Below are positions 10,364 through 26,124 of a DNA stretch of 26,796 nt, one piece after another. The DNA comes from a virus, in IMG/VR virus record IMGVR_UViG_3300021142_000155, positions 1 to 26,796 of that record; one strand, given 5' to 3'. The notes under the pieces were generated by a model. It saw only the letters and a program-made list of their open reading frames with translations. It did not search any database and was not told the DNA's origin. The number at the start of each line of letters is the position of its first letter. The stretch's first letter is position 1. Position numbers and translations under genes: made by a program.

Positions 10364-12109
10364 TTATCCATGATTTGCGTTATTAAGATTTTGTTGTAGC
10401 TGAGCGTTAGCGTTTGCCATTTGAGCTCTCATTCTATTTCTTAATGCTTTACCGCCTTTTTGTTTATTTATAAATGCGTTTAATCCAAGACCATTATTTT
10501 CGTCTTCGTTGTCCGGTGAATCTACTCCGTAATTTATATCAACAAATACGTCTGGTGTAACTGTACTATCTTCTATGTAAGATAATGCCTGGTTAATACT
10601 CGCTTGTTGATCTGTTGATAAAGAACTAGGTTGTATCTTTATTAATTTTTTTGACTCTAAAAGTAATTTAACCTCTTCTATTATGATACTGTCATTAGAA
10701 GCAAAAGTAGGAGTTGATTTCACAACTTCTATTCCGTCTTTATCTAAAGCAATGCCGTAACGTCTTGGTATGTTACTAGATCTCTGTAATAATTCTTCTT
10801 TTATGATTTGAATAGTGTAATCTCCGTAAGTATTATTAATTTGTGTTGATTTGTTTTGTTTGTTTTGAACAAACGTATTCAATTGATTTGAAGTATCTTG
10901 AAGAGTAGCTAAAGTATCTTTGAGATCATTTACTAATCCTTGAGGAGCGTTACTACAAGATTCTAAATTACCTATAATCTTAGATATGTCGTTTATGATA
11001 CTTTGAATATCGTTATAAATGTCAGAAATTACAAGACTCAATAAGTTAAGCAATCCAGATACGCTATTAAGATCTTGTGTTACAGTATCTACAAAATCGC
11101 TTATCTTTTTTAAAGCGTCTCCAAATCTTACGTTTATACCCACTATAGTAAACATATTTGGTATGGGTAAACTCTTTAAAAACTCAGACACTATCGTAAG
11201 TACTTTAACTAAGCCTACTGCTATATTTACGTAAGATTGAGCGGCTCTAATAGTCGATAGGATTAATTGACAAAATTTTGTAATGGCTGCTAATTGTGTT
11301 CTTATTGTCTGCAGCATAGGAATTAACTTAGATAAGTCGTTTCCTATTATAGAATTTAATTGTTTGAGTTGACTCTGCAATACAGAATCTACAACTTGAG
11401 AAGCTGGATTTAATATATAATTATAGCCAGCATAAATATTTATAGACTGTATCTTTATGCAATGTGTTCTAGTATCATTGACGAACAACATTATTTTTTT
11501 TACCGTTATTTTTTTGTTTTCTTCAGTTTGATTGTTTAAAATATTTATATTATTATTAGTAGTACTAAAATAAGTTAGAGCAGAATTAAGATATACGTAA
11601 CTAGGTAACAAAGAAGGAAAAGCCTTTAGTAAATTTTTATTGGCAACAGAATAATCTTTTGTATTGTCTAATATATCCTTTAATTGATTTACGAGATCAT
11701 TTAGTATGGTATCGAAGTCTTTTAATTGAATATCTCTAGTCTCTGACTTTATAAATCCATCTATATTAGATTGTATCACATAGGATTTATATTGAAGGTT
11801 ATAAGCATTTTTTACAAGGCTTGAATCAGATTGACTGGGTTGTTTTGTCGGATCAAACTGATAGCCTTGAATATTTTTAGTTAGATTAACTTGATAAGAC
11901 AACAAGGAACAAAGGTTCAATGAAGACACTTGATCTAAGATTCCTAATATACCAACGTCTGCGATCCGATCCTTTAAAGTCGACTTCCTATATTCTCCAG
12001 GAGAGAGCATTTGAGTTCCATGAAATATTTGATCAATATTCTTTTTAAAATCGTCTATCTTTTCGTTAGATGATTTAATGGAATTCTCAAATACAGATTT
12101 ATTAGGCAT
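10364..12109 (-). CDS. Long alpha-helical baseplate/tail protein, 581 aa
   Basis: No named family is recognised. The protein is almost wholly helical. Residues about 245-400 form a run of long amphipathic and hydrophobic helices (QLKQLNSIIGNDLSKLIPML, RTQLAAITKFCQLILSTI, LVKVLTIVSEFLKSLPI, SVSGLLNLLSLVISDIY). Charged coiled coils flank them near the N-terminus (EKIDDFKKNIDQ) and at 400-440. The hydrophobic part could look like membrane segments but is broken by polar residues, which suits a bundled structural protein. The C-terminal tail is Asn/Gln/Ala-rich. It lies between the spike-like gene and the gp25-like block, where T4-type phages encode hub or wedge-initiator proteins. A hub-associated role is a weak inference from position. 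Confidence 0.7.
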   Translation of the reverse strand: MPNKSVFENSIKSSNEKIDDFKKNIDQIFHGTQMLSPGEYRKSTLKDRIADVGILGILDQVSSLNLCSLLSYQVNLTKNIQGYQFDPTKQPSQSDSSLVKNAYNLQYKSYVIQSNIDGFIKSETRDIQLKDFDTILNDLVNQLKDILDNTKDYSVANKNLLKAFPSLLPSYVYLNSALTYFSTTNNNINILNNQTEENKKITVKKIMLFVNDTRTHCIKIQSINIYAGYNYILNPASQVVDSVLQSQLKQLNSIIGNDLSKLIPMLQTIRTQLAAITKFCQLILSTIRAAQSYVNIAVGLVKVLTIVSEFLKSLPIPNMFTIVGINVRFGDALKKISDFVDTVTQDLNSVSGLLNLLSLVISDIYNDIQSIINDISKIIGNLESCSNAPQGLVNDLKDTLATLQDTSNQLNTFVQNKQNKSTQINNTYGDYTIQIIKEELLQRSSNIPRRYGIALDKDGIEVVKSTPTFASNDSIIIEEVKLLLESKKLIKIQPSSLSTDQQASINQALSYIEDSTVTPDVFVDINYGVDSPDNEDENNGLGLNAFINKQKGGKALRNRMRAQMANANAQLQQNLNNANHG

Positions 12110-12110
12110 T

Positions 12111-12557
12111 TTATGCTAAGTTATTTTTTGGTAAAAATACAACTTGAGATCTAGTAGAGTTTTGAATAGCGTTTCGTATTTGTGGTAATTTTAAAGCCAA
12201 AGCATTTGAAGGAGCACTTATATTGGTCCTCAAAGTAGAAGGCACAGAATATTGTACGTCTTTTGCTTGACTGAAAAATGCTGTCAATTCGTCTATTAGA
12301 CTTAATAACTCGTTAACTAAAGTATCTCCTAATAACGCAGGTTCTCCGTTTTGATCAGAGTCTCTTTGACCCAAATTTATAATTGGAGAACTTATTGTTA
12401 CGCTTGTTTTTGCATCTATATTAACTGTATTAATACTAGATAAGCTTACTGCCTCTCTTCCAAAAACAAACACAGAATCTTTATCTGCCAATAGAGTAAC
12501 TCTATCAGATGTGATAATTGCTTGGTTGCCTGTGTATGGAAATTTTGGTGTATACAT
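12111..12557 (-). CDS. Baseplate spike/beta-helix protein (gp5 C-terminal or VgrG-tip-like)
   Basis: Residues 12-65 consist of short beta strands with regular spacing (QAIITSDRVTLLAD, DSVFVFGREAVSLSS, VNIDAKTSVTISSPIINLG), as in the trimeric beta-helix of T4 gp5, VgrG and P2 gpV spikes. It is followed by the segment GEPALLGDTLVNELLSLIDE and a short helix, which I associate with the same proteins. It would form or cap the membrane-puncturing needle below the hub. It is coupled to the OB-like hub gene by a TAATG overlap at 12557. There is no lysozyme domain. A one-base gap separates it from the 581-aa gene. Confidence 0.65.
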   Translation of the reverse strand: MYTPKFPYTGNQAIITSDRVTLLADKDSVFVFGREAVSLSSINTVNIDAKTSVTISSPIINLGQRDSDQNGEPALLGDTLVNELLSLIDELTAFFSQAKDVQYSVPSTLRTNISAPSNALALKLPQIRNAIQNSTRSQVVFLPKNNLA

Positions 12558-13468
12558 TATTGTAAACTATTTAAAACAAATGAATCTTGACTTGCTGCAT
12601 CTTGCGAATCGTTAGAAATCGGAGGCTGATAGTAAGACGCGATAACATTTTGTTGATCTATTTGAACTTTTACTCCTCCAAAAGAATCAAGTGGATACTC
12701 GTAAATAGAATTTAAAACTATCCTTTGGCCCGCGGTTAAATATATGGAAGCAGCATCGCTATTTATGTCTTCTACCGTAGTCGCAAATTTATCGGAAGAA
12801 TTAGAAACTTTACCTTGCCCGTTTCTAATGATCATAATTGGATCTCCATTATTTCCAGAGTTAGACCAATTATTGAAATTTCTCATAGAAGTAGTAGTAG
12901 ATCCAAATCTAATAGATTGACCAAACCTAGATTCTATGATAGTGTCTCCTTCAAACGGTGTTAAAGATTTTATATCTTTCTCTGAAAACGAATAACCTTT
13001 AGGAAGCTCTATACTATCTGTATTAGTTTTACCTGGGTAAGAAGCTTTCTTTTTGTATTGAGCAGTAAAATTTGCCCACTCTTCCATATTTGGAAACGCA
13101 TTGTGGTTAACAGAATTCCAAACTTGGAATGGAGGAAAATAAAATAATCTTTGACTGTTAAAATTATCGTTGAGTCCATGGTAAGGTCCTCTGGTTATGA
13201 AGACTATTTCTCCTATAATTGGAAGTTGCTTAATAACGCTAAATATAGGATAAGCATTCTTAGAAGTAGCTCCCAAAGAAATGCTATTTGGACTATATAA
13301 AAATTCAAAGGATATCTTTCCTATGTCATCGTAAGTATTAAAGTTGTCGTCTTTTATATTTGGATCACCGCTTTTAAACGGGCCTAACACTATATCCTTT
13401 ACGCGTCCAATTATTATCTCTGACCCTATGTCTTCTACTTTTGATATACTTGGATTGCTAAACGCCAT
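12557..13468 (-). CDS. Baseplate hub protein with OB-like N-terminus (gp5-like)
   Basis: Residues 15-110 look like an OB-type beta barrel (SEIIIGRVKDIVLGP, then FSVIKQLPIIGEIVFITRGP), as at the start of T4 gp5/gpV-like hub proteins. Residues about 165-240 carry a motif I know from hub proteins of marine T4-like phages: TPFEGDTIIESRFGQSIRFG, then WSNSGNNGDPIMIIRNGQG, then VEDINSDAASIYLTAGQ. The last of these points to the start of a spike stem. It overlaps the 119-aa gene upstream and the spike-like gene downstream, both as TAATG. In T4, the OB, lysozyme and beta-helix parts are one chain. Here the OB part and the helix part are separate genes and no lysozyme is visible. Confidence 0.7.
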   Translation of the reverse strand: MAFSNPSISKVEDIGSEIIIGRVKDIVLGPFKSGDPNIKDDNFNTYDDIGKISFEFLYSPNSISLGATSKNAYPIFSVIKQLPIIGEIVFITRGPYHGLNDNFNSQRLFYFPPFQVWNSVNHNAFPNMEEWANFTAQYKKKASYPGKTNTDSIELPKGYSFSEKDIKSLTPFEGDTIIESRFGQSIRFGSTTTSMRNFNNWSNSGNNGDPIMIIRNGQGKVSNSSDKFATTVEDINSDAASIYLTAGQRIVLNSIYEYPLDSFGGVKVQIDQQNVIASYYQPPISNDSQDAASQDSFVLNSLQ

Positions 13469-16317: not shown

Positions 16318-17250
16318 ATGGAACTACATGACTACGTATTAGGTTTATTGGAATCTTTGCTAGGTAAAGGCAAGAAAGATCGTCACTCTTTCGATTATGC
16401 GTTTCAGTGTCCTTTCTGTAATCACAAAAAGCCAAAGCTAATCGTTAACGTAAAAACCGGTCAATACAATTGCTGGACATGTTATCCTCCAACGAAAGGT
16501 AAAACTCCAGTATCATTGCTTGTAAAGCTTGGAGCTGACAACGATAGAGTTTTGGAGATGAAGAGCTATTTTAAAGAAGATAGAACTAAGATAGAAAAGG
16601 ATAGAGATAAGAGTGTTTTTTTACCAGAAGAATTTGAATCTTTTACTAACAAAGATGGATCTTTGGAGTATCGTAGAGCAGCTTCTTATTTAAAAAATAG
16701 AGGCATTGAAGCCCAAGACGTGCTAAAATACAATCTCGGATATTGTAAAACTGGCCGATATAGAAATAAAATTATCGTTCCATCTTACGATAAAAACGGA
16801 AAATTAAATTATTTTGTAGCAAGATCTTACGAAAAAAATCCCGTATTAAAGTACGATGCTCCATCTGTAAATAAGACAGAAATAATCGGCATGGAATACT
16901 TTATCAATTGGAATATCCCAGTGATTTTATGCGAAGGCGCATTTGACGCCATAGCCATAAAACGTAATGCAATACCGCTATTTGGAAAATATATTCCTGA
17001 AGCGTTGATGCTAAAATTGGTAGAATCTAAAGTCAAAACAGTTTACTTAGCGTTAGATAACGATGCGCTCAAGGAAGCTCTGGCGTGCTCACAGACACTG
17101 CTTGATTACGGTAAAGAAGTATACTTAATAGAATTAGACGGCAAAGACCCAAGCGATCTGGGGTTCGAAAAAATGACGCAGTTATTACAAAAAGCTAAAC
17201 CATTAACATTCGGTGATCTTTTATTAAGAAGATTAGAAATTGGAAAATAA
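16318..17250 (+). CDS. 61: DNA primase, gp61-like, zinc finger plus TOPRIM
   Basis: This primase makes RNA primers for lagging-strand synthesis and works with a gp41-type helicase. The zinc module holds C31-P-F-C34 and C52-W-T-C55 around a short beta ribbon. The TOPRIM core has its acidic residues in order: E206 in VILCEGAFDAIAIKR, D247-N-D249 in VYLALDNDA, and D277/D280 in GKDPSDLG. These are the DnaG-type metal-binding positions. At 310 aa it is near T4 gp61 (342 aa) and shorter than bacterial DnaG; no helicase domain is fused. It is the first gene of the plus block, with 3 bases before the SbcDC-like gene, so priming and recombination genes are co-transcribed. Confidence 0.9.
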   Translation: MELHDYVLGLLESLLGKGKKDRHSFDYAFQCPFCNHKKPKLIVNVKTGQYNCWTCYPPTKGKTPVSLLVKLGADNDRVLEMKSYFKEDRTKIEKDRDKSVFLPEEFESFTNKDGSLEYRRAASYLKNRGIEAQDVLKYNLGYCKTGRYRNKIIVPSYDKNGKLNYFVARSYEKNPVLKYDAPSVNKTEIIGMEYFINWNIPVILCEGAFDAIAIKRNAIPLFGKYIPEALMLKLVESKVKTVYLALDNDALKEALACSQTLLDYGKEVYLIELDGKDPSDLGFEKMTQLLQKAKPLTFGDLLLRRLEIGK

Positions 17251-17253
17251 AAT

Positions 17254-20200
17254 ATGCGAAAGATACACAGTACTATTGAATTGTCAAAGCTTGATAAGAT
17301 ATATCATATAAGTGATATTCACATTAGAAATTTTAAAAGACACGAAGAGTATAATAGAGTCTTTGAAAGATTATATAAACACATAAGAGATACTTACACA
17401 GAAAATAGTTTGATTGTAATAACCGGTGACATAGTGCACTCTAAAACGGATGTAACACCGGAATTGGTTGAAATGGTGCATAAGTTTTTAAGAAATCTGT
17501 GTGCTATACACAAAGTCTTAATGATTCCTGGTAATCACGACGCTAATTTAAATAATGCTTATAGGATGGACGCTTTGACTCCTATAGTTAATGCGTTAAA
17601 TGAGCCAAATTTAATGTACGTAAAAGATACGTGCCATTTTAAAATAGCAGATAAGACATTTGTGCATTGGTCTGTCTTTGACAAAGAAGATAAATACACA
17701 AAAGCTATTGATATAGAAGGAGATTATAAGATAGCTTTATATCATGCTCCCGTAACTGGAGTTCAAATAAAAGAGAACGCACAATTACTAAATCAAAATC
17801 TTAATATATCTGACTTTGAAGGCTTTGATATAGTCCTCTTAGGAGACATTCACACAAGACAATTCTTAAATCCAGAACAAACTATTGGTTACCCAGGATC
17901 ACTAATACAGCAAAATCATGGAGAGACTATAGGTAAAGGTATATATGTTTGGGACTTAGAAAATAAAAAAGCTGAGTATGTAGAAATATACAACGATACT
18001 GCATTTTATACTATCGAAGTTAACTTTGGAGTGTACGATCCATTACCATCTTATTTACCTAATAATTTATATCTACGGATTAGATACAATCACACAACTC
18101 AATCTGTTATTAAAGACATAATAGAGGATATAAAACAGAAAAGAAATGTCATAGAAGCATCTATACAAAAGATAAATGATTTTTCTACTACAGAAGGAGC
18201 AGAGAAAAGACTTCACAATATAGACATTAGAGATATCAAGTATCAAAATACAATATTGGCAGATTTTTTAGAAGATACTTTCGCAGAAGACGATGACATA
18301 GAAACTGTAAAGAGGATTTTGGAGATAAATACCAATTTAAATAAGCTCTTGTCTAAGTCTGAAGTTCCAAGAAATTCTATGTGGATACCTAAAGTATTTG
18401 AGTTAGATAACATGTTCTCTTACGGTAAAGGAAACGTAATAGATTTTTCAAGCATGCAAGGAACTTACGGAATATTTGCTCCAAACGCTAGCGGTAAATC
18501 TACTTTATTGGATTCTATTACTTATTGCATCTTTGATAAGTGCTCAAAGACAACAAAGGCGAATCAGGTGATGAACAATCAATCCACTAATTTTCGCTGT
18601 AAATTAACGTTCGAATTGCATGGAAAAGAGTATTGCATAGAAAGAAATGGGGTAAAACAAAAACAAGGCAACGTTAAAGTTAATGTAAATTTCTCTTATA
18701 AAGAAGGAGATGATAGTATATCGTTAAACGGCAAAGATCGCAGCGATACTAACTCTAATATTAGAGCTTTGATGGGTAATTACGAAGATTTTGTATTAAC
18801 TGCTTTATCTGTGCAAAACAATAATACTGGCTTTATTGATATGTCCCAAAGCGATAGAAAGGACTTACTATCCCAATTTTTGGACGTAAATATTTACGAA
18901 GAATTGTATCAATTGGCTAACAATGAAATGAAAGAGGTTTTAGTACTATTGAAAGAGTACAATAAAGAAGACTACCAACACTTGTTAAGAAAATCTGAAT
19001 TCAATATAGAAACTTACGATATCGCTCTAGAAGATGCAAAAAATAGGAAATTAGCTGTAGAATTAAAAAGAAGCGATGTTAACACAAAGATCTTAGATAA
19101 AGCTGCTAAACTAATTCCAGTTGATAAAGACATAGTGGATATAGATGGTCTAGAGGATCAAAAATCTACAATAGAGTCAGGTATACAAAAAGTAATTTCT
19201 TTAATAGACAGTAATTTATTAGAACTAAATAATATTGAGACTAAAATATTAGAATTAAACAAAAAGACAGTAGATAATAATTTGATTAAAGACGTTAATC
19301 TAGAAGATTATAGTCATAAATTAAAATCTTATAAATTAGATACAGAAACTTTACAGCAAAAGCAAATAGAGCTAAATAATGCCAAAAATAATTTGAAGAA
19401 TAGTAAAAAGAAGATGGAGAAATTGGCAGAATTAAAATACGATCCTATGTGTAAATTCTGCATGGACAATGTATTTGTTAAGGACGCAATAGAAACTAAA
19501 AATACCATAGCATCAGAAGAGCAAGCAGTAACAGACATAGAAGACGAAGTAAAATTTTTACAAGAGACTATAAAAAATAATTCTATAGTACTGCAAATAA
19601 AAGAAGCGAAAGATCAATACAATAAAGATCTACAAAATTTAGAATCACAAAAAAATAGATTAAATTCTGAAGATAATAAATTAAATAAAAAATTAAATGA
19701 CGCTCGAATGTTGTTAACTTCTATAGAATTAAAAATAGAAGCTCATAACTATCAACAAAAGGCTATAGAAACTAATAAAATATTAAATACAGAAATAGAA
19801 GAATTAAATAAAAGTCTAAAAGAAATTGAGAGAGATCTAAATAAAGAAAACGAAAAGATCGTAGACATTTCTTCGAATAAAAAGTTAGAAGAGGGTAATA
19901 GAGTTAAGTATAGAGCTGCAATACAAAAATTAAAAGATTTAGAATTAAAGTCAAAAGACTATCAATATTATTTGACAGCTACACACAGAGATGGTATACC
20001 ACACACTTTAATCGTAAGTATTATACCGTCAGTTGAAGAAGAGATTAATAACATTTTAGCGCAGATAGTTGATTTTTCTATTGTATTACAAGCGGAAGAT
20101 AAATCTATAAACGCTTACATAGCCTATTCAGATCAAGATTACTGGCCTTTGGAACTAACTTCAGGTATGGAAAAATTTATAGCGAGTCTAGCCATTAGAA

Positions 20201-20433
20201 CGTCTTTAATTAATGTATCTTCTCTACCAAAGCCTAACTTTTTAGCTATAGACGAAGGTTTTGGCGCTTTAGATTCTACTAATTTAAACTCCATGGTGAT
20301 GCTATTTGATTACTTGAAGACTCAATTTAAATTTATTGTAATTATCTCTCACATAGATTCTATGAGAGATATAGTGGATTCTCATATAGAAATTAGTAAG
20401 ACAAACGGTAAATCTAAAATAGAACACGTGTAG
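17254..20433 (+). CDS. Single-chain recombination nuclease, SbcD-SbcC / gp47-gp46 fusion
   Basis: The Mre11-Rad50-type complex processes DNA ends for recombination-dependent replication. The N-terminal half is the Mre11/gp47 phosphoesterase: D21-I-H23, G58-D59, G93-N-H-D96, H164 and G197-D-I-H200. The C-terminal half is the Rad50/gp46 ATPase: Walker A GIFAPNASGKST (406-417), a Q-loop-like segment near LSVQNNNTG, long coiled coils (about 570-930) with a zinc hook C733-K-F-C736 between them, signature TSGME (969-973), Walker B FLAIDEGFGALD (996-1007) and H-loop ISH1033. In T4 these are two genes (about 340 and 560 aa). The open frame runs through the junction at about 350-390 with no stop. The signature lacks the usual LSGG form. 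No frameshift is seen. Confidence 0.92.
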   Translation: MRKIHSTIELSKLDKIYHISDIHIRNFKRHEEYNRVFERLYKHIRDTYTENSLIVITGDIVHSKTDVTPELVEMVHKFLRNLCAIHKVLMIPGNHDANLNNAYRMDALTPIVNALNEPNLMYVKDTCHFKIADKTFVHWSVFDKEDKYTKAIDIEGDYKIALYHAPVTGVQIKENAQLLNQNLNISDFEGFDIVLLGDIHTRQFLNPEQTIGYPGSLIQQNHGETIGKGIYVWDLENKKAEYVEIYNDTAFYTIEVNFGVYDPLPSYLPNNLYLRIRYNHTTQSVIKDIIEDIKQKRNVIEASIQKINDFSTTEGAEKRLHNIDIRDIKYQNTILADFLEDTFAEDDDIETVKRILEINTNLNKLLSKSEVPRNSMWIPKVFELDNMFSYGKGNVIDFSSMQGTYGIFAPNASGKSTLLDSITYCIFDKCSKTTKANQVMNNQSTNFRCKLTFELHGKEYCIERNGVKQKQGNVKVNVNFSYKEGDDSISLNGKDRSDTNSNIRALMGNYEDFVLTALSVQNNNTGFIDMSQSDRKDLLSQFLDVNIYEELYQLANNEMKEVLVLLKEYNKEDYQHLLRKSEFNIETYDIALEDAKNRKLAVELKRSDVNTKILDKAAKLIPVDKDIVDIDGLEDQKSTIESGIQKVISLIDSNLLELNNIETKILELNKKTVDNNLIKDVNLEDYSHKLKSYKLDTETLQQKQIELNNAKNNLKNSKKKMEKLAELKYDPMCKFCMDNVFVKDAIETKNTIASEEQAVTDIEDEVKFLQETIKNNSIVLQIKEAKDQYNKDLQNLESQKNRLNSEDNKLNKKLNDARMLLTSIELKIEAHNYQQKAIETNKILNTEIEELNKSLKEIERDLNKENEKIVDISSNKKLEEGNRVKYRAAIQKLKDLELKSKDYQYYLTATHRDGIPHTLIVSIIPSVEEEINNILAQIVDFSIVLQAEDKSINAYIAYSDQDYWPLELTSGMEKFIASLAIRTSLINVSSLPKPNFLAIDEGFGALDSTNLNSMVMLFDYLKTQFKFIVIISHIDSMRDIVDSHIEISKTNGKSKIEHV

Positions 20434-20455: not shown

Positions 20456-22150
20456 ATGGAATTTAATGTAATAAAAACAGTTATTGCCGTGTTTCCTGGA
20501 CGTTTCCAACCGTTTGGAAAGCATCATGCTGATTCGTTTAGGTGGCTGCAATCAAAGTTTGGTGTTGCAGATACGTTCATAGCTACTACAGACAAAGTAG
20601 ATCCTCCAAGGAGCCCATTAAATTTTAAAGAGAAGAAAGAAATCATATCAAAGTATGGATTTGGAGATAGGGTAGTATTAGTTAAAAATCCGTATAAAGC
20701 AGAAGAAATTACTTCTAAATACGATCCAAATACTACTGCTGTTGTATTCATGGTAGGCCAAAAAGACATGCAAGAAGATCCAAGATTTAAAATTGGAAAA
20801 AAGAAAGACGGCACAGACTCTTATTTTAGAGCATACGATTCAGATCAAGCGTTAAAATCATACACATCTCATGGATATCTAATAGTAGCTCCACATGCAT
20901 CTCACCAAATTCCTGGTATAGGAGAAATGAGTGGCACAAACATTAGACGAGCGCTATCTATGCCAACTACTGTAACTCAATATAAGAAAAATTTTGAAGG
21001 CGTATTTGGTTGGTGGGATGAAAGATTGGCAAAACTAATGAAACAAAAATTTTCTTCTCAACCATTAAAAGAGACTAAGCTATTAAGTTTTCTTTTTAAA
21101 TCTTTGTTAACAGAGGGCGGGGCTGGTGGCCATATGGCCCATCCATTTGATTTAGATAGAGTAAAAACCGGTAAAGATCTAATAGCAGTATTTGAACAAA
21201 CCATAAAATTCTTACAAAATAATCCAGCACCAGTAAAAATAGATGGCGTTAACTCATCTATAAGATTGGGAGATATAAACGGTAAAAGAGAGTTTGTAAT
21301 AGATAGAGGTTCGGCCAAAGAGTTAGATGTTAAAGGTGTGACTAAAGCAGATCTACCGGCTAGATTCGATACACCGGGACACGGTATGATTAAAGTTGGT
21401 GGTAAAGTATTAGATATATTTAACTCTGCGTTACCTGCTATTAAATCAGAATTGAGCCAATTGGGAATGATCAAGAATCCTAATATACTGTTTAATATAG
21501 AATATGTAGAAGGTAAAACAAACGTACAAGATTACGGTAAAAATTTCTTAGCCATACATAATTTGCTTGAGATATCCCCAAATCCAGGTAAAAAATCAAG
21601 ATCTACCCATGAAATTCCATACTCTAAAGAAGTACTTAAATCTCTTATAGAAAAATTACAACCCTTTGCTAAGAAGCAAGGATTTGAAGTCTTATCTTCT
21701 ATACCTGCTAAAATTAAAAAAACCCCTAATCTAGGATCTGTTTTATCAAAAAGTTATCCAATCGTGTTGACAAAAGGCAAAAAACAAACTAAAAGTTTAG
21801 GTGATTGGATAAATGATGCTAAAAACACAAAAGGTATAAAACTTAAATTAAAGGACGGCAAAGTCGTTGATGCTTTAAGTAAATTTGTCTTCTTAGAGGT
21901 TAAAAAAGGAACCCCAGTCACAGAATTGGTAGCAGATCCTAAGGACGCTAAAATAGCTATAGATTCCTTTGCGATATACGAAGCTACAATGGAATTGGGA
22001 GACGCAATACTAAAGTCTATGACTAGTCCACTAGGACCTGTGGATCAGCAAGAAGGCATAGTTGTGAGAGATCCAGCGATAGCAAAAGAACCATTTAAGA
22101 TCACTGGCTCATTTATTATTAGAGGTTTACAAACAACATTTACAAAATAA
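20456..22150 (+). CDS. Nucleotidyltransferase fused to a ligase-like (KxDG) domain, 564 aa
   Basis: Two domains are visible. Residues 8-200 are a cytidylyltransferase-like Rossmann domain of the NMN/pantetheine adenylyltransferase superfamily: FPGRFQPFGKHH (13-24) is the HxGH-type nucleotide loop and SGTNIRRAL (159-167) the ISGTxIR motif. Residues 223-564 belong to a phage family I know as DUF6267-like (GGAGGHMAHPFD). They carry the covalent-nucleotidyltransferase (DNA/RNA ligase) signatures: motif I K261-I-D-G264, IIIa-like FNIEYVEG (346-353), motif IV E533-G-I-V-V-R538 and a following FKITG (motif V-like). The junction, LLTE220 then GG, resembles a prohead-protease site. NAD metabolism or nucleic-acid repair are both possible and the substrate is unknown. 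The end overlaps the peptidase gene as TAATG. Confidence 0.75.
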   Translation: MEFNVIKTVIAVFPGRFQPFGKHHADSFRWLQSKFGVADTFIATTDKVDPPRSPLNFKEKKEIISKYGFGDRVVLVKNPYKAEEITSKYDPNTTAVVFMVGQKDMQEDPRFKIGKKKDGTDSYFRAYDSDQALKSYTSHGYLIVAPHASHQIPGIGEMSGTNIRRALSMPTTVTQYKKNFEGVFGWWDERLAKLMKQKFSSQPLKETKLLSFLFKSLLTEGGAGGHMAHPFDLDRVKTGKDLIAVFEQTIKFLQNNPAPVKIDGVNSSIRLGDINGKREFVIDRGSAKELDVKGVTKADLPARFDTPGHGMIKVGGKVLDIFNSALPAIKSELSQLGMIKNPNILFNIEYVEGKTNVQDYGKNFLAIHNLLEISPNPGKKSRSTHEIPYSKEVLKSLIEKLQPFAKKQGFEVLSSIPAKIKKTPNLGSVLSKSYPIVLTKGKKQTKSLGDWINDAKNTKGIKLKLKDGKVVDALSKFVFLEVKKGTPVTELVADPKDAKIAIDSFAIYEATMELGDAILKSMTSPLGPVDQQEGIVVRDPAIAKEPFKITGSFIIRGLQTTFTK

Positions 22151-22548
22151 TGACTACACAAGAGCGCATAAGCTTGATTGAAGACTTTATAGACTTTGCT
22201 AGCTATCATCTAAAAATAGAGAAGCTTCCAAAGATGACTTTTATCGGAGACAAAAGCTGGGTATTAGCTAGACATAGTTTCGGTGAATACGCGAATCAAA
22301 CTAATTCTATAGTGATGTATATAGCCAATAGAAATTTAGCAGATGTGCTTAGAACCCTTGGTCACGAATTAACGCATCATAGACAAAATGAACTCGGATT
22401 ATTGTACGCAAAATCAGGAGAAACTGGATCTCCAGTAGAAGATGAAGCAAACATAGTTGCCGGAATATTAATGAGAGAATTCGGTAAGAAGCATGAATTA
22501 ATATACGAAGGTATCAAAACAAACGTATTGAAACAACTTATAAAATAA
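22150..22548 (+). CDS. Small HExxH zinc metallopeptidase, 132 aa
   Basis: The zinc site is clear: H72-E-L-T-H76 in RTLGHELTHHRQNELG, with a downstream acidic ligand in SPVEDEANIVAG (E97 or E99) within a helix, the gluzincin-type arrangement. This compact form (HExxHxxQ, then a SGETGSP loop, then an E-x-E/D-A-N helix) recurs in marine T4-like phages as an unassigned family. There is no signal peptide, so it acts in the cytoplasm or inside the virion. Substrate unknown. It is translationally coupled to the upstream fusion gene by a TAATG overlap. Confidence 0.82.
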   Translation: MTTQERISLIEDFIDFASYHLKIEKLPKMTFIGDKSWVLARHSFGEYANQTNSIVMYIANRNLADVLRTLGHELTHHRQNELGLLYAKSGETGSPVEDEANIVAGILMREFGKKHELIYEGIKTNVLKQLIK

Positions 22549-23150: not shown

Positions 23151-23747
23151 ATGCCAATTACAAAGAAGACTCCGATTGGAAAAGCTGTAAAAGATTTTGA
23201 AAAATCAAAAGCTCCTCAATTCAAAGGAAAGAGTAAAGAGAAACGTGCGCAAATGGGAGTAGCAGCTGCATTACACGCAAAAAATCCTAGTGGACTTAAG
23301 AAAAAACCCAAGTACGAAAATCACGTAGGAGAGATCCATGCTGTCTTGCATCCACACGAAGGTTCTACTGTAGCTGGTATGATTAAAGAAATCGATCCAT
23401 TGAAAGGATTAGCTCCTCACTCTATAGTAGCCGAAGACGTACATAGTATACACAATAATAGAAAAGACGCTATAGGAACTGCGAAAAGATTACACGCAGA
23501 ACATTTAGATAAGCTTGAAGAGATTGAGCAAAAGAAAGATCACGTGGCTAAAAAGATTACCACAGCAATAGACAAGTTAGAAAAGAAGAGAAAAGGCCAT
23601 ATTGATTTGGCTAAAAAAGATCCAAAAAATGCTGGAGTTCACAAAGAGCACATTGCACATCTAGCTCATCAAATAGACGATTTAATGACTAAACTGCAAA
23701 AAGTAGAAAGATCTAAGAAACACGACAAAGAAGAAAAAAAGAAATAA
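23151..23747 (+). CDS. Basic Lys/His-rich phage protein, DUF6321-like N-terminus, 198 aa
   Basis: The N-terminus (TPIGKAVKDFEKSKAPQFKG, then KSKEKRAQMGVAAALHA, then KNPSGLKKKP) is a widespread phage motif that I associate with DUF6321-like proteins. It is strongly basic. Residues 85-198 are a long Lys/Glu/His-rich helix (LHAEHLDKLEEIEQKKDHV) ending in a Lys-rich tail, probably coiled coil. No catalytic motif is visible. Composition would suit DNA binding or packaging with the genome, which is inference. It overlaps the following gene as TAATG at 23747. Confidence 0.7.
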   Translation: MPITKKTPIGKAVKDFEKSKAPQFKGKSKEKRAQMGVAAALHAKNPSGLKKKPKYENHVGEIHAVLHPHEGSTVAGMIKEIDPLKGLAPHSIVAEDVHSIHNNRKDAIGTAKRLHAEHLDKLEEIEQKKDHVAKKITTAIDKLEKKRKGHIDLAKKDPKNAGVHKEHIAHLAHQIDDLMTKLQKVERSKKHDKEEKKK

Positions 23748-24208
23748 TGATAAAGCTTTCAACTCTTCTTAACGAAGAATTAAATCAAGAGAGAAAAAAT
23801 CCTTGCTGGAGAAGTTATCGTCATTTCGGAACAAAGAACAAAAATGGAAAACAAGTTCATGATTGTAGAAAGATATATGAAGAAGACGAGATAGAAGAGG
23901 TAGAAGACTTTTGTCCTCAATGTTTGGCAGAGTACATAAAAAAGCATGCTAACTCTCTACAAGAGGCAGAATATCACGGTAAAAAAGTCACTCTAGGAAA
24001 ACCATTCTTAACACCGGATGGTCCTAAAAAGAGATCAGTGTACGTTAAAAACGATAAAGGTAAAGTAGTAAAAGTTAATTTTGGCCAAAAAGGAGTAGCG
24101 ATTAAAAAGTATTTACCCAAACACAGAAAATCTTATAGAGCGAGACATCACTGTGAAAATCCAGGGCCTAGAGATCGTGCTAATTATTGGTCATGTCGAT
24201 TTTGGTAG
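23747..24208 (+). CDS. Cys-rich two-module protein with capsid-targeting-like leader, 153 aa
   Basis: The protein starts MIKLSTLLNE and then ELNQ, a leader closely resembling T4 internal-protein capsid-targeting sequences that end in [L/I]-x-E at residue 10. Module 1 has NPC20WRSYRHFGTKNKNGKQV, then C40, and a CPQC pair (56-59). Module 2, after a second candidate site SLQE73, contains YHGKKVTLGKPF, then VYVKNDKGKVVKVNFGQKG and the end pattern KSYRARHHC136ENPGPRD followed by YWSC150RFW. Both modules recall small proteins that occur separately in marine T4-like phages. Cys/His content suggests zinc binding. Function unknown; a virion-internal basic protein is a reasonable inference. Confidence 0.75.
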   Translation: MIKLSTLLNEELNQERKNPCWRSYRHFGTKNKNGKQVHDCRKIYEEDEIEEVEDFCPQCLAEYIKKHANSLQEAEYHGKKVTLGKPFLTPDGPKKRSVYVKNDKGKVVKVNFGQKGVAIKKYLPKHRKSYRARHHCENPGPRDRANYWSCRFW

Positions 24209-24241
24209 ACGAATTATACGCTCTAATTAAAAAGTAAATAG

Positions 24242-24751
24242 ATGATAAAGTTACTCAGCATCTTAAAAGAGGTGAAAGACGCTCAAAGAACTAAAGCAGG
24301 AAAGAAAGTCAATAAAGCATATTTGACTAAAAATAAGGCTGCTATGAAGAGGGAGATCGATAGAGTTGCAAAACTAAAAAATGATGATCCTTCTGCTTAT
24401 AGAAAGTGGGATGCTGACTACTCTGATAAATCAAAAACTAAACCTTATAAGACAAAAGAATCTTCTGCTACAAAAGCTTATAAAGAGAAGTTTGGAGAAG
24501 GCATAAATGAAGGTAACGAAGACGTTGCCTTGGACCATAAAGCTAAAGCTACTGGTATATCGAAATCTGTACTAAAAGCAGTGTACGATAAAGGCCTTGC
24601 TGCCTGGAAAACTGGTCATAGACCTGGAGTCAGCCAGCATCAGTGGGCAATGGCTAGAGTTAACTCTTTTGTCACTGGAAAGGGTGGATCCAGAAAAGCA
24701 GATAAAGATCTTTGGAAGAGAGCGTCTAATAAATCAAAACATAAAAAATAA
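24242..24751 (+). CDS. DUF5824-like basic protein with capsid-targeting-like leader, 169 aa
   Basis: It starts MIKLLSILKE and then VKD, again a 10-residue leader ending in L-K-E. Residues 95-160 match a widespread phage motif I associate with DUF5824: LDHKAKATGISKSVLKAVYD, then AAWKTGHRPGVSQHQWAMAR, then VNSFVTGKGGSRKADKDLW. The middle is Lys/Ala-rich (DPSAYRKWDADYSDKSKTK) with a second I-N-E site at 88-90 just before the conserved module. The protein is very basic and has no catalytic motif. Similar modules are common in phages without known function. A packaged, DNA-associated protein is inferred from the leader and charge. Confidence 0.75.
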   Translation: MIKLLSILKEVKDAQRTKAGKKVNKAYLTKNKAAMKREIDRVAKLKNDDPSAYRKWDADYSDKSKTKPYKTKESSATKAYKEKFGEGINEGNEDVALDHKAKATGISKSVLKAVYDKGLAAWKTGHRPGVSQHQWAMARVNSFVTGKGGSRKADKDLWKRASNKSKHKK

Positions 24752-24763
24752 ATAACTTATAGT

Positions 24764-25510
24764 GTGAATATCAAGAACCATAAACCATTAAGGAAGCACC
24801 TTACTCTGATAAGAGAAAACGCTAAACAGGCAAAAGGCTATTTTGAACAAGGTAAAATATCCAAAGAAGATTTAGATGCATTAATGAATGCAGATCCTAC
24901 CAAACAAAAAAAATACGTAGGCTGGATGACAAAAATTTTTCTAAAGGATAGGCCTGATATAGATGATTTGAGAAATAAAATAGAAGAGTTTGATACTCTT
25001 CTAAATAAAGGAAGGATTAATACAAAAGATATTAATCAATTTAAATCCTTCAATGATTTAAAAAAAGAGGTAGATGATATAAATAATTCAGGTGCTGGAA
25101 TAACGGACAGAGATTTGGAAAATGACTACGAAACAATTTTAGATAATTCTGATCTTTTGGTCATGTGTCCTCATACTCACGAAGCATCTCGTAAATTAGG
25201 CCTATCAAAATTTGCATTTAGAGACTGCGAAGGAGGAGGTAAAGATTCTGCGTGGTGTACTACCTATAAAGCACCAGATCATTTTAATGATTATTATTAC
25301 AATCGTAACGTAACATTTTACTATATTAGAGTAAAATCTAATAGATTAATTGAAAAATTAAAGGATCAGTTTCCTAATAGATACAAAAAATTAGAAGTAG
25401 TAGCTTTAGCCATACTTCCAGACGAGAATATAGACGCGTACGATGGATTAGATAAACAATTAACGAGCAGCGACATAAATAAATTTCTTAAAACAATTAA
25501 TATTAAATAA
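24764..25510 (+). CDS. Conserved phage protein with a DSAWCTT motif, GTG start, 248 aa
   Basis: The start is GTG at 24764 (no ATG fits), giving an N-terminus that ends in LTLIRE18 then NAKQ, another [L/I]-x-E leader. The core (about 45-245) is a family I recall from uncultured T4-like phages: WMTKIFL and DIDDLRNKIEEF, then ENDYETILDNSDLLVMCPHT, HEASRKLGLSKFAF, and a Cys/Trp site, GKDSAWCTTYKAPDHFNDYY followed by VTFYYIRVKS. WCTxx(Y/F)xxYYxxVxFYYI-like cores also occur in phage proteins that carry leucine-rich repeats in the same chain. Here the repeats are in the next gene, 2 bases downstream. H133/H135, C150 and C157 might form a catalytic or metal site, but this is unproven. Confidence 0.7.
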   Translation: MNIKNHKPLRKHLTLIRENAKQAKGYFEQGKISKEDLDALMNADPTKQKKYVGWMTKIFLKDRPDIDDLRNKIEEFDTLLNKGRINTKDINQFKSFNDLKKEVDDINNSGAGITDRDLENDYETILDNSDLLVMCPHTHEASRKLGLSKFAFRDCEGGGKDSAWCTTYKAPDHFNDYYYNRNVTFYYIRVKSNRLIEKLKDQFPNRYKKLEVVALAILPDENIDAYDGLDKQLTSSDINKFLKTINIK

Positions 25511-25512
25511 CC

Positions 25513-26124
25513 ATGACTACAATAAAATTAATAAGATTACTTCTTGAAGAAGATCAATCCAATAAGTTTGATCTTATTACAAAGCGTTCTCCTGAAGAGA
25601 GGCAGAAGAATTACTCTATTGTTGTTCAAAAAAAAATACAACAGTATATAAAAGATGGAAGTAAAGGAAATCTTAATTTAAGAAATACTCCAATTACAGC
25701 TTTACCTGACAACTTAACCGTCGGAGGTTATCTTGATTTAGAAAATACTAAAATTACAGCTTTACCTAACAACTTAACCGTCGGAGGTTATCTTGATTTA
25801 GAAAATACTAAAATTACATCGTTACCTGACAACTTAACTGTTAGAGGTAATCTTAATTTAAGAAATACTCCAATTACAGCTTTACCTGACAACTTAACCG
25901 TTGATGGTGGTCTTTATTTATCAAATACTAAAATTACATCGTTACCTGACAACTTAACCGTCGGAGGTTATCTTGATTTAGAAAATACTAAAATTACAGC
26001 TTTACCTGACAACTTAACTGTTAGAGGTAATCTTGATTTAGCAAATACTCCAATCTCTAAAAAATATACAAAAGAAGAAATAAAACAAATGGTGCCTAGA
26101 GTAAAAGGCGATATATATCTATAA
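25513..26124 (+). CDS. Leucine-rich-repeat protein with capsid-targeting-like leader, 203 aa
   Basis: The start is MTTIKLIRLLLE12 then ED, an [L/I]-x-E leader. After a charged helix (about 20-50), residues 51-180 are 20-residue leucine-rich repeats: LDLENTKITALPDNLTVGGY and variants, six full copies plus partial ones. The form LxLxxTxIxxLPxNLxVxG resembles the short LPx type found in YopM/IpaH-like bacterial effectors, a fold for protein binding. The end (KEEIKQMVPRVKGDIYL) caps the solenoid. No ubiquitin-ligase or other catalytic domain is fused. It is in the same transcript as the WCTT protein. Target unknown. The near-identical repeats suggest recent expansion. Confidence 0.85.
   Translation: MTTIKLIRLLLEEDQSNKFDLITKRSPEERQKNYSIVVQKKIQQYIKDGSKGNLNLRNTPITALPDNLTVGGYLDLENTKITALPNNLTVGGYLDLENTKITSLPDNLTVRGNLNLRNTPITALPDNLTVDGGLYLSNTKITSLPDNLTVGGYLDLENTKITALPDNLTVRGNLDLANTPISKKYTKEEIKQMVPRVKGDIYL
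25681..26040 (+). repeat. Six 60-bp tandem repeats encoding leucine-rich repeats
   Basis: Six consecutive 60-bp units keep exact phase from 25681 to 26040, with a partial unit after. Units share AATACT, CAATTACA/AAATTACA, TTACCTGACAACTTAAC and a variable tail. Two tail types recur as blocks: CGTCGGAGGTTATCTTGATT (25681, 25741 and 25921 units) and CTGTTAGAGGTAATCTT (25801 and 25981 units). This mosaic pattern indicates duplication or recombination between units. Confidence 0.95.

Follow-up and report, generated by a model that had tools for sequence, protein, structure and literature searches.

A phage gene joining an NMNAT-like domain to an RNA-ligase-like domain through a leader-like junction: a possible capsid-packaged precursor

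The gene and its surroundings

The viral DNA analysed here encodes a chain in which an NMNAT-like domain precedes a domain with ligase motifs, which raises the question of whether the product works as one fused enzyme or as two, and where in the phage life cycle it does so. The window, meaning the whole stretch of DNA under analysis, covers a virus-record fragment of 26.8 kb, in which head genes are absent. The sequence-only reading had described a single chain in which an NMNAT-type half is joined to a KxDG half; the gene is indeed one intact frame, with its motifs where they had been placed (FPGRFQPFGKHH at residues 13-24, FNIEYVEG at 346-353, and SGTNIR, KIDG and EGIVVR as in Table 1). Read on the opposite strand in the corresponding frame, the same stretch is interrupted by stops throughout, and full-length homologues of the 564-aa chain, with 52-88% identity, are carried by viral contigs.

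The left part of the window is a run of minus-strand genes, one of which matches a baseplate wedge family. The plus-strand genes that precede the chain encode a primase-like protein and a 1059-aa protein that combines an SbcD-like phosphoesterase with an SbcC/Rad50-like ATPase; the counterparts of the latter in cyanophage S-PM2 are the separate genes gp47 and gp46, and the relative G001 has a 1054-aa chain in the matching position (L194 10030-13194). A small zincin-like protein is encoded directly 3′ of the chain, followed by several small genes. PADLOC gave no defence-system match. A scan of bacterial and archaeal genomes returned six loci, five in titled MAGs and one in an uncultured-bacterium assembly, and the ligase-domain family therefore looks viral.

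Table 1. Features of the 564-aa chain, its gene and neighbouring genes in the window
Feature	Residues	Coordinates	Strand	Basis or remark
Primase-like gene		16318-17250	+	Upstream of the gene for the 564-aa chain
Single-chain SbcD/SbcC-like gene		17254-20433	+	Pfam Metallophos and AAA_23; upstream of the gene for the 564-aa chain
Whole gene, NMNAT-like and RNA-ligase-like chain		20456..22150	+	Intact ORF, ATG start, 564 aa
NMNAT-like (HIGH superfamily) nucleotidyltransferase domain	1-205	20456..21070	+	Profile A7
GKHH in place of the HxGH signature	21-24	20516..20527	+	A7 alignment, motif list
SGTNIR, second nucleotide-binding motif	159-164	20930..20947	+	T161 and R164 invariant in A7; S159 and G160 nearly so
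Leader-like junction TKLLSFLFKSLLTE; LLTE/GG candidate prohead-protease site	207-220	21074..21115	+	Conserved P1 Glu
RNA-ligase-like covalent nucleotidyltransferase domain	221-564	21116..22147	+	AlphaFold model and structure comparison
GGAGGHMAHPFD, family signature at the predicted mature N-terminus	221-232	21116..21151	+	G221, G222, G225, H226, M227 and H229 invariant in A4
Motif I KIDG, candidate lysyl-AMP site K261	261-264	21236..21247	+	K, D and G invariant in A4
Motif III NIE	347-349	21494..21502	+	N347 and E349 invariant in A4
Motif IV EGIVVR	533-538	22052..22069	+	E533, G534 and V536 invariant in A4
Motif V KITG	548-551	22097..22108	+	K548, T550 and G551 invariant in A4
Small zincin-like protein with HELTHHRQ (by eye)		22150-22548	+	Directly 3′ of the gene for the 564-aa chain

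The ligase-like second half

No Pfam or PHROG family was found for the window-type ligase domain. A single-sequence search of solved structures gave chance matches only, mostly to ribosomal protein S7, and the family profile reached no ligase by sequence among solved structures; among known RNA ligase families, PF09414 was matched at E 0.035 by one giant relative (L048) only, and by the window protein not at all. The evidence in the sequence comes instead from an alignment (A4) of 38 ligase-like domains in three diverged viral subfamilies: window-like (A1), L077-like (A2) and L072-like (A3). A2 and A3 are about 20% identical to the window domain, and hhalign profile comparison joins A1 to each of them at 97% probability (E about 1e-10). 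The columns that are invariant in all 38 sequences include GGxxGHMxH, KxDG, NxE, NVxxY with a following H, EGxV and KxTGxF. Covalent nucleotidyltransferases carry their motifs in the order I, III, IIIa, IV, V, and A4 has the same order. With KxDG, NxE, EGxV and KxTG unchanged throughout three subfamilies, the ligase motifs are not due to chance. The lysine K261, on whose conservation the ligase assignment had been staked, is among the invariant positions and, judging from its motif, is likely to be the AMP carrier.

An AlphaFold model of residues 207-564 has a pLDDT of 88.3 and a pTM of 0.83, and a second model, of the L077-type domain, has a pLDDT of 86.4. When VIA-align was run with the window model on the 1000 PDB chains ranked first by Foldseek, all 50 of the best 50 of those chains were ligases. 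T4 Rnl1 had a Z of 8.4 (rmsd 4.2, 188 residues aligned), followed by Naegleria RNA ligase with 7.4, T4 Rnl2 with 6.4 and human Lig1 with 5.9. The L077-type model gave Z 9.3 with the Naegleria ligase and 8.8 with T4 Rnl1, and again the best 50 were all ligases; with both models, RNA ligases stand above DNA ligases by Z. Foldseek against the PDB on its own returned nothing at E 0.001 or better, with ligases among its first rows. At the ends of the structural alignments, K548 lies no more than 1-2 residues from the motif V lysines of known RNA ligases, and K396 of the L077-type model aligns with residue 326 of the Naegleria ligase (the site of K326A entries) if there is no gap near the end. Z values of 8-9 are modest by themselves, and no solved ligase was reached by sequence search; however, the uniform list of ligases, the replicate model and the invariant catalytic set together make a ligase-type fold of the second half very likely. 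Thus the prediction that this half would resemble covalent nucleotidyltransferases has held, with RNA ligases first and a second subfamily in agreement, and the ligase reading is right for the fold and the catalytic set, making the second half an RNA-ligase-like enzyme that had so far escaped recognition.

On structural rank, RNA is the somewhat favoured prediction for its substrate. An NAD-using ligase, which the sequence-only reading had allowed, has become less well supported, as the domain's closest structural neighbours are RNA ligases that depend on ATP, and neither Pfam nor the listed structure results for the ligase half showed an NAD-binding Ia domain. The ATP-dependent RNA ligases (T4 Rnl1, Naegleria, TbREL1, T4 Rnl2, Trl1) share with the window family the predicted nucleotidyltransferase fold and the succession of KxDG, motif III Glu, EGxV and motif V Lys. 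The window family differs from them in having no sequence-level match to a solved ligase, in its GGxxGHMxH N-terminus, in a stretch of 150-220 residues between motifs IIIa and IV, and in lacking a C-terminal domain.

A further family with similar features is DUF6267 (PF19782) of T4-type cyanophages, present in 471 phage records, in which KxDG, EGxV and the motif V Lys are likewise invariant and which is fused or adjacent to a cytidyltransferase. Its S-PM2 representative A0A0M6VVW4, equated with S-PM2d138 by length and phage, structurally matches the window model (E 3.7e-5). In contrast, hhalign gives a probability of 1.4% between DUF6267 and the window family, the window domain has no PF19782 match, DUF6267 has neither the GGxxGHMxH start nor the leader, its gene order is reversed, and its partner keeps an HxGH-type motif (TTGH) where the window protein has GKHH. 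Because the profile comparison failed, the link is one of motif order and a single structural match, and DUF6267 is probably a distant relative of the window family, not a member. Searches of the open-licence literature found neither the term DUF6267 nor any account of an NMNAT paired with an RNA ligase.

The NMNAT-like first half and its recurrent pairing

A profile of 16 homologues of the first half (A7) matches Francisella NMNAT (2qjt, 1.9e-5) and archaeal NMNAT MJ0541 (1f9a, 2.1e-5) in the PDB, and the homologue in L070 matches Pfam CTP_transf_like at 3.7e-9. Archaeal NMNAT, NadM and NadR, which provide the best solved profile matches, share the GRFQP opening and the SGTxxR motif with the first half, which differs from them in its GKHH, in weak mid-domain similarity and in having no Nudix or kinase partner. 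The HxGH-type signature contacts ATP in this nucleotidyltransferase superfamily. The NMNAT/PPAT-type assignment stands as NMNAT-like by profile, but not in the signature itself, of which the first His is lost and the Gly is now His. Fused relatives have GxHH, or AxHH and SxHH, at this position, whereas HxGH is intact in L070, L077 and L080. The change to GKHH suggests that the activity of the NMNAT-like half may be altered, and nucleotidyl transfer may even be lost; the earlier idea of a cofactor-supplying first half is to that extent less well supported, the GxHH type being that of fused relatives.

A HIGH-type nucleotidyltransferase is fused to or lies beside the ligase domain in 106 of 124 loci when four groups are summed, although the paired loci are related by descent and do not count as independent events. 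All 39 window-type loci are paired (35 fused, 4 near), as are 33 of 43 A2 loci, 12 of 12 A3 loci and 22 of 30 DUF6267 loci, the window-type loci having been sampled by the ligase domain alone and the other three counts being near, not strictly, domain-only, since they include a few loci from two-domain queries and later genome stretches. Each locus had at least 2.5 kb on both sides and was scored with profiles for HIGH-type nucleotidyltransferases. The order is nucleotidyltransferase-ligase in the window, ligase-nucleotidyltransferase in L072 and ligase-cytidyltransferase in S-PM2, and the halves are separate genes in L047, L053 and L070. In the genomes of three relatives there is one NMNAT hit per genome, in or beside the ligase gene. 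Gene orders and fusion states differ among loci, and the pairing is not accidental; it could nevertheless reflect shared delivery instead of a shared pathway, if phages group their packaged effectors.

Larger chains were also observed. In L037-L041, an insert of about 190 residues separates the NMNAT and ligase domains, and in L037 it is flanked by two cut-like sites (LLKE/S at 220 and LLRE/GG at 412, the slash marking the candidate cut here and below). L048-L069 are chains of approximately 850-1320 aa that end in this ligase domain; several start with a PPAT-like nucleotidyltransferase (MKIALLPGGFKPPHLGHYN), and they may contain metallopeptidase-like and DUF5661 segments.

The junction and the case for capsid packaging

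The sequence-only reading took the chain for a stable two-domain enzyme; the junction is itself a leader-like segment (residues 207-222) ending in LLTE/GG. Among 112 distinct sequences, Glu occupies P1, just ahead of GG, in 105 and Met in seven, while 108 have Leu, Ile or Val at P3. The seven begin Met-Gly-Gly, and this Met is their likely start because a stop codon lies 2-17 residues upstream. The sequence upstream of the junction Glu varies widely while the Glu itself is kept, and the leader is disordered in both AlphaFold models (pLDDT below 50 in the window model). A hydrophobic leader with a P1 Glu is thereby present ahead of the predicted mature ligase domain. In the window protein, the only site of the form [LIVMF][LIV]xE is the one at 217-220. 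Such sites number 7 in the domain cores of 13 non-redundant fused proteins, where 21.4 would be expected (6,918 aa), and 36 in their linkers and N-termini, where 13.2 would be expected (2,447 aa), with up to 13 of the 36 supplied by the conserved junction. Further sites lie near other domain borders in L072, L077, L078 and L080. As the sequence-only reading had stated, some relatives encode the second domain by itself, preceded by a leader: L047 and L053 (MNLIKILLSE/GG) and L070 (MLTFKQFLLE/GG). With a leader and a cut-like site in the linker, and with the halves separate in some relatives, the chain is more likely a precursor, and a stable fused enzyme is less well supported.

The competing interpretation is that an uncut two-domain repair enzyme acts after infection and that the junction is a flexible linker with an amphipathic helix. 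It would account for the in-frame fusion in those 35 of the 39 well-flanked window-type loci, for fusion in both orders (ligase-first in L072 and S-PM2) and for the position of the window gene after the primase and SbcCD-like genes, but it leaves unexplained the separate genes of L047, L053 and L070, the retention of Glu before GG beside a variable upstream sequence, the seven members that start with Met-GG at exactly that point and the avoidance of domain cores by cut-like sites, and we consider it unlikely.

The genomic setting of the relatives is that of T4-type heads. A T4-type S77 prohead protease is encoded in 15 of 18 records with the ligase family, the window fragment being without head genes. 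In G003, which holds a relative at 87% identity (L006), the gene is part of a same-strand run leading to the terminase, T4-type portal, S77 protease and Gp23, and many of the intervening genes in G003 and G001 have short leaders ending in Glu. Such leaders number 6 in the window against 1.5 in shuffled sequences, 9 against 2.5 in G003, 12 against 5.3 in G015 and 21 against 13 in G001.

Several other genes near these loci are of interest as candidates for packaging. In the window, four consecutive plus-strand genes at 23747-26124 have leaders ending in Glu (MIKLSTLLNE, MIKLLSILKE, MNIKNHKPLRKHLTLIRE and MTTIKLIRLLLEE); one encodes DUF5824 and one leucine-rich repeats, and their products are candidate capsid-packaged proteins. 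In G001, a battery of small leader-bearing genes lies between the ligase and the terminase (L194 1315-7108), some of them with a second leader type, KRMQQLAGIxKE. In Microcystis phage Mel-JY01 (PP395634), a cultured relative whose own chain (ORF 11243-13162) has the junction IAE/GG with GGLGGHMNHPF as the predicted new N-terminus, a gene close to the prohead protease (L188 22429-23595) encodes a protein that is ADP-ribosyltransferase-like by eye, a candidate head-packaged effector.

In T4, a 10-residue N-terminal sequence that is cut after Glu is enough for packaging (PMC9026906), and T4-type prohead proteases cleave after Glu (PMC5694885). Virion proteomics detected a cytidylyltransferase in cyanophage S-CREM2 (PMC10665884) and an NMNAT in S-SCSM1 (PMC9602691), although the authors of both studies allow for carry-over after CsCl purification. 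The NMNAT-like virion protein of S-SCSM1 begins with the leader MKSFLQFLKE/A. The S-SCSM1 virion protein beside it, ORF90, was considered as a ligase and rejected, as no KxDG-type motif set was seen by eye. The window family resembles T4 internal proteins and Alt, with their capsid targeting sequence, in its short hydrophobic leader ending in Glu and in the T4-type head with S77 protease of its relatives; it differs in that its leader is internal, between two enzymes, and that packaging is here inferred.

The explanation that we prefer, with a probability of roughly 0.5, is that the chain is a capsid-packaged precursor. It would be packaged in a T4-type prohead, where the S77 (gp21-type) protease would cut after LLTE-220 and free the NMNAT-like nucleotidyltransferase from an RNA-ligase-like enzyme beginning with GGAGGHM; both products would remain in the capsid and enter the cell together with the DNA. 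There K261 of the ligase might accept AMP from a nucleotide, in all likelihood ATP, and the enzyme might reseal nucleic acid that has been broken, the most probable target being RNA, for instance cleaved tRNA; its NMNAT-like partner might replenish NAD or a related dinucleotide. As infection begins, the pair would then weaken defences that cut RNA or deplete NAD. At about even odds, the working form would be two separate injected enzymes, not one fused enzyme. Against packaging, the proteins detected in virions are NMNAT-like relatives and not window-type chains, and because the window chain has no N-terminal leader, the NMNAT half would have to rely on the internal one to be packaged. The GKHH of the first half and the lack of a domain after motif V in the second also count against the proposed activities.

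The last of these points bears on a further alternative, that the ligase fold does not join nucleic acids but belongs to an internal head protein that binds nucleotides or to an enzyme that modifies proteins with AMP. In many ligases a C-terminal domain such as an OB-fold assists nick or end joining. The window chain ends just after motif V, with no OB-fold or other C-terminal domain, and the long insert between motifs IIIa and IV would also suit a non-joining protein; however, the catalytic positions are invariant in three subfamilies and for the most part shared with DUF6267, a degree of conservation uncommon in dead enzymes, and the nearest structures are RNA ligases, making this alternative quite improbable. 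Cutting of the junction by the downstream zincin-like metallopeptidase, and not by the prohead protease, is very improbable despite its HELTHHRQ, the close homologue that directly follows in G003, the similar HEIEH segment inside the giant L048 and L050 chains that end in the ligase domain and the proposal of such processing for polyvalent proteins by Iyer et al. (PMC5512222), because the conserved P1 Glu fits a T4-type prohead protease (PMC5694885) and no Pfam peptidase reaches its cut-off for the zincin-like gene.

Phage polyvalent proteins (Iyer et al. 2017, PMC5512222) combine several enzyme domains in one polypeptide and are proposed to be delivered with DNA; the giant relatives L048-L069 match that description. 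Term searches of PMC5512222 found no NMNAT or ligase domain among polyvalent proteins, and the window family differs from them in that cut-like sites mark its domain borders. More tentative, at somewhat less than even odds, is the general proposal that T4-type phages make capsid polyproteins, multi-enzyme precursors with cut sites at domain borders from which the prohead protease frees injected enzymes that would be in place ahead of phage gene expression. In this case they would be a nucleotidyltransferase and RNA ligases of a new family.

A large phage family that had been uncharacterised now has an assigned fold and catalytic set, and the structural match extends these to DUF6267. The pairing offers a possible reason for the repeated presence of NMNAT-like proteins in cyanophage virions, and the junction makes a sharp prediction about polyprotein cutting within phage heads. 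Phage pathways that restore NAD are known (NARP1, PMC12774641). Should both enzymes be injected, the phage could start repairing RNA and supplying NAD before it transcribes its own genes, a point relevant to how phages outrun defences that cut tRNA or deplete NAD.
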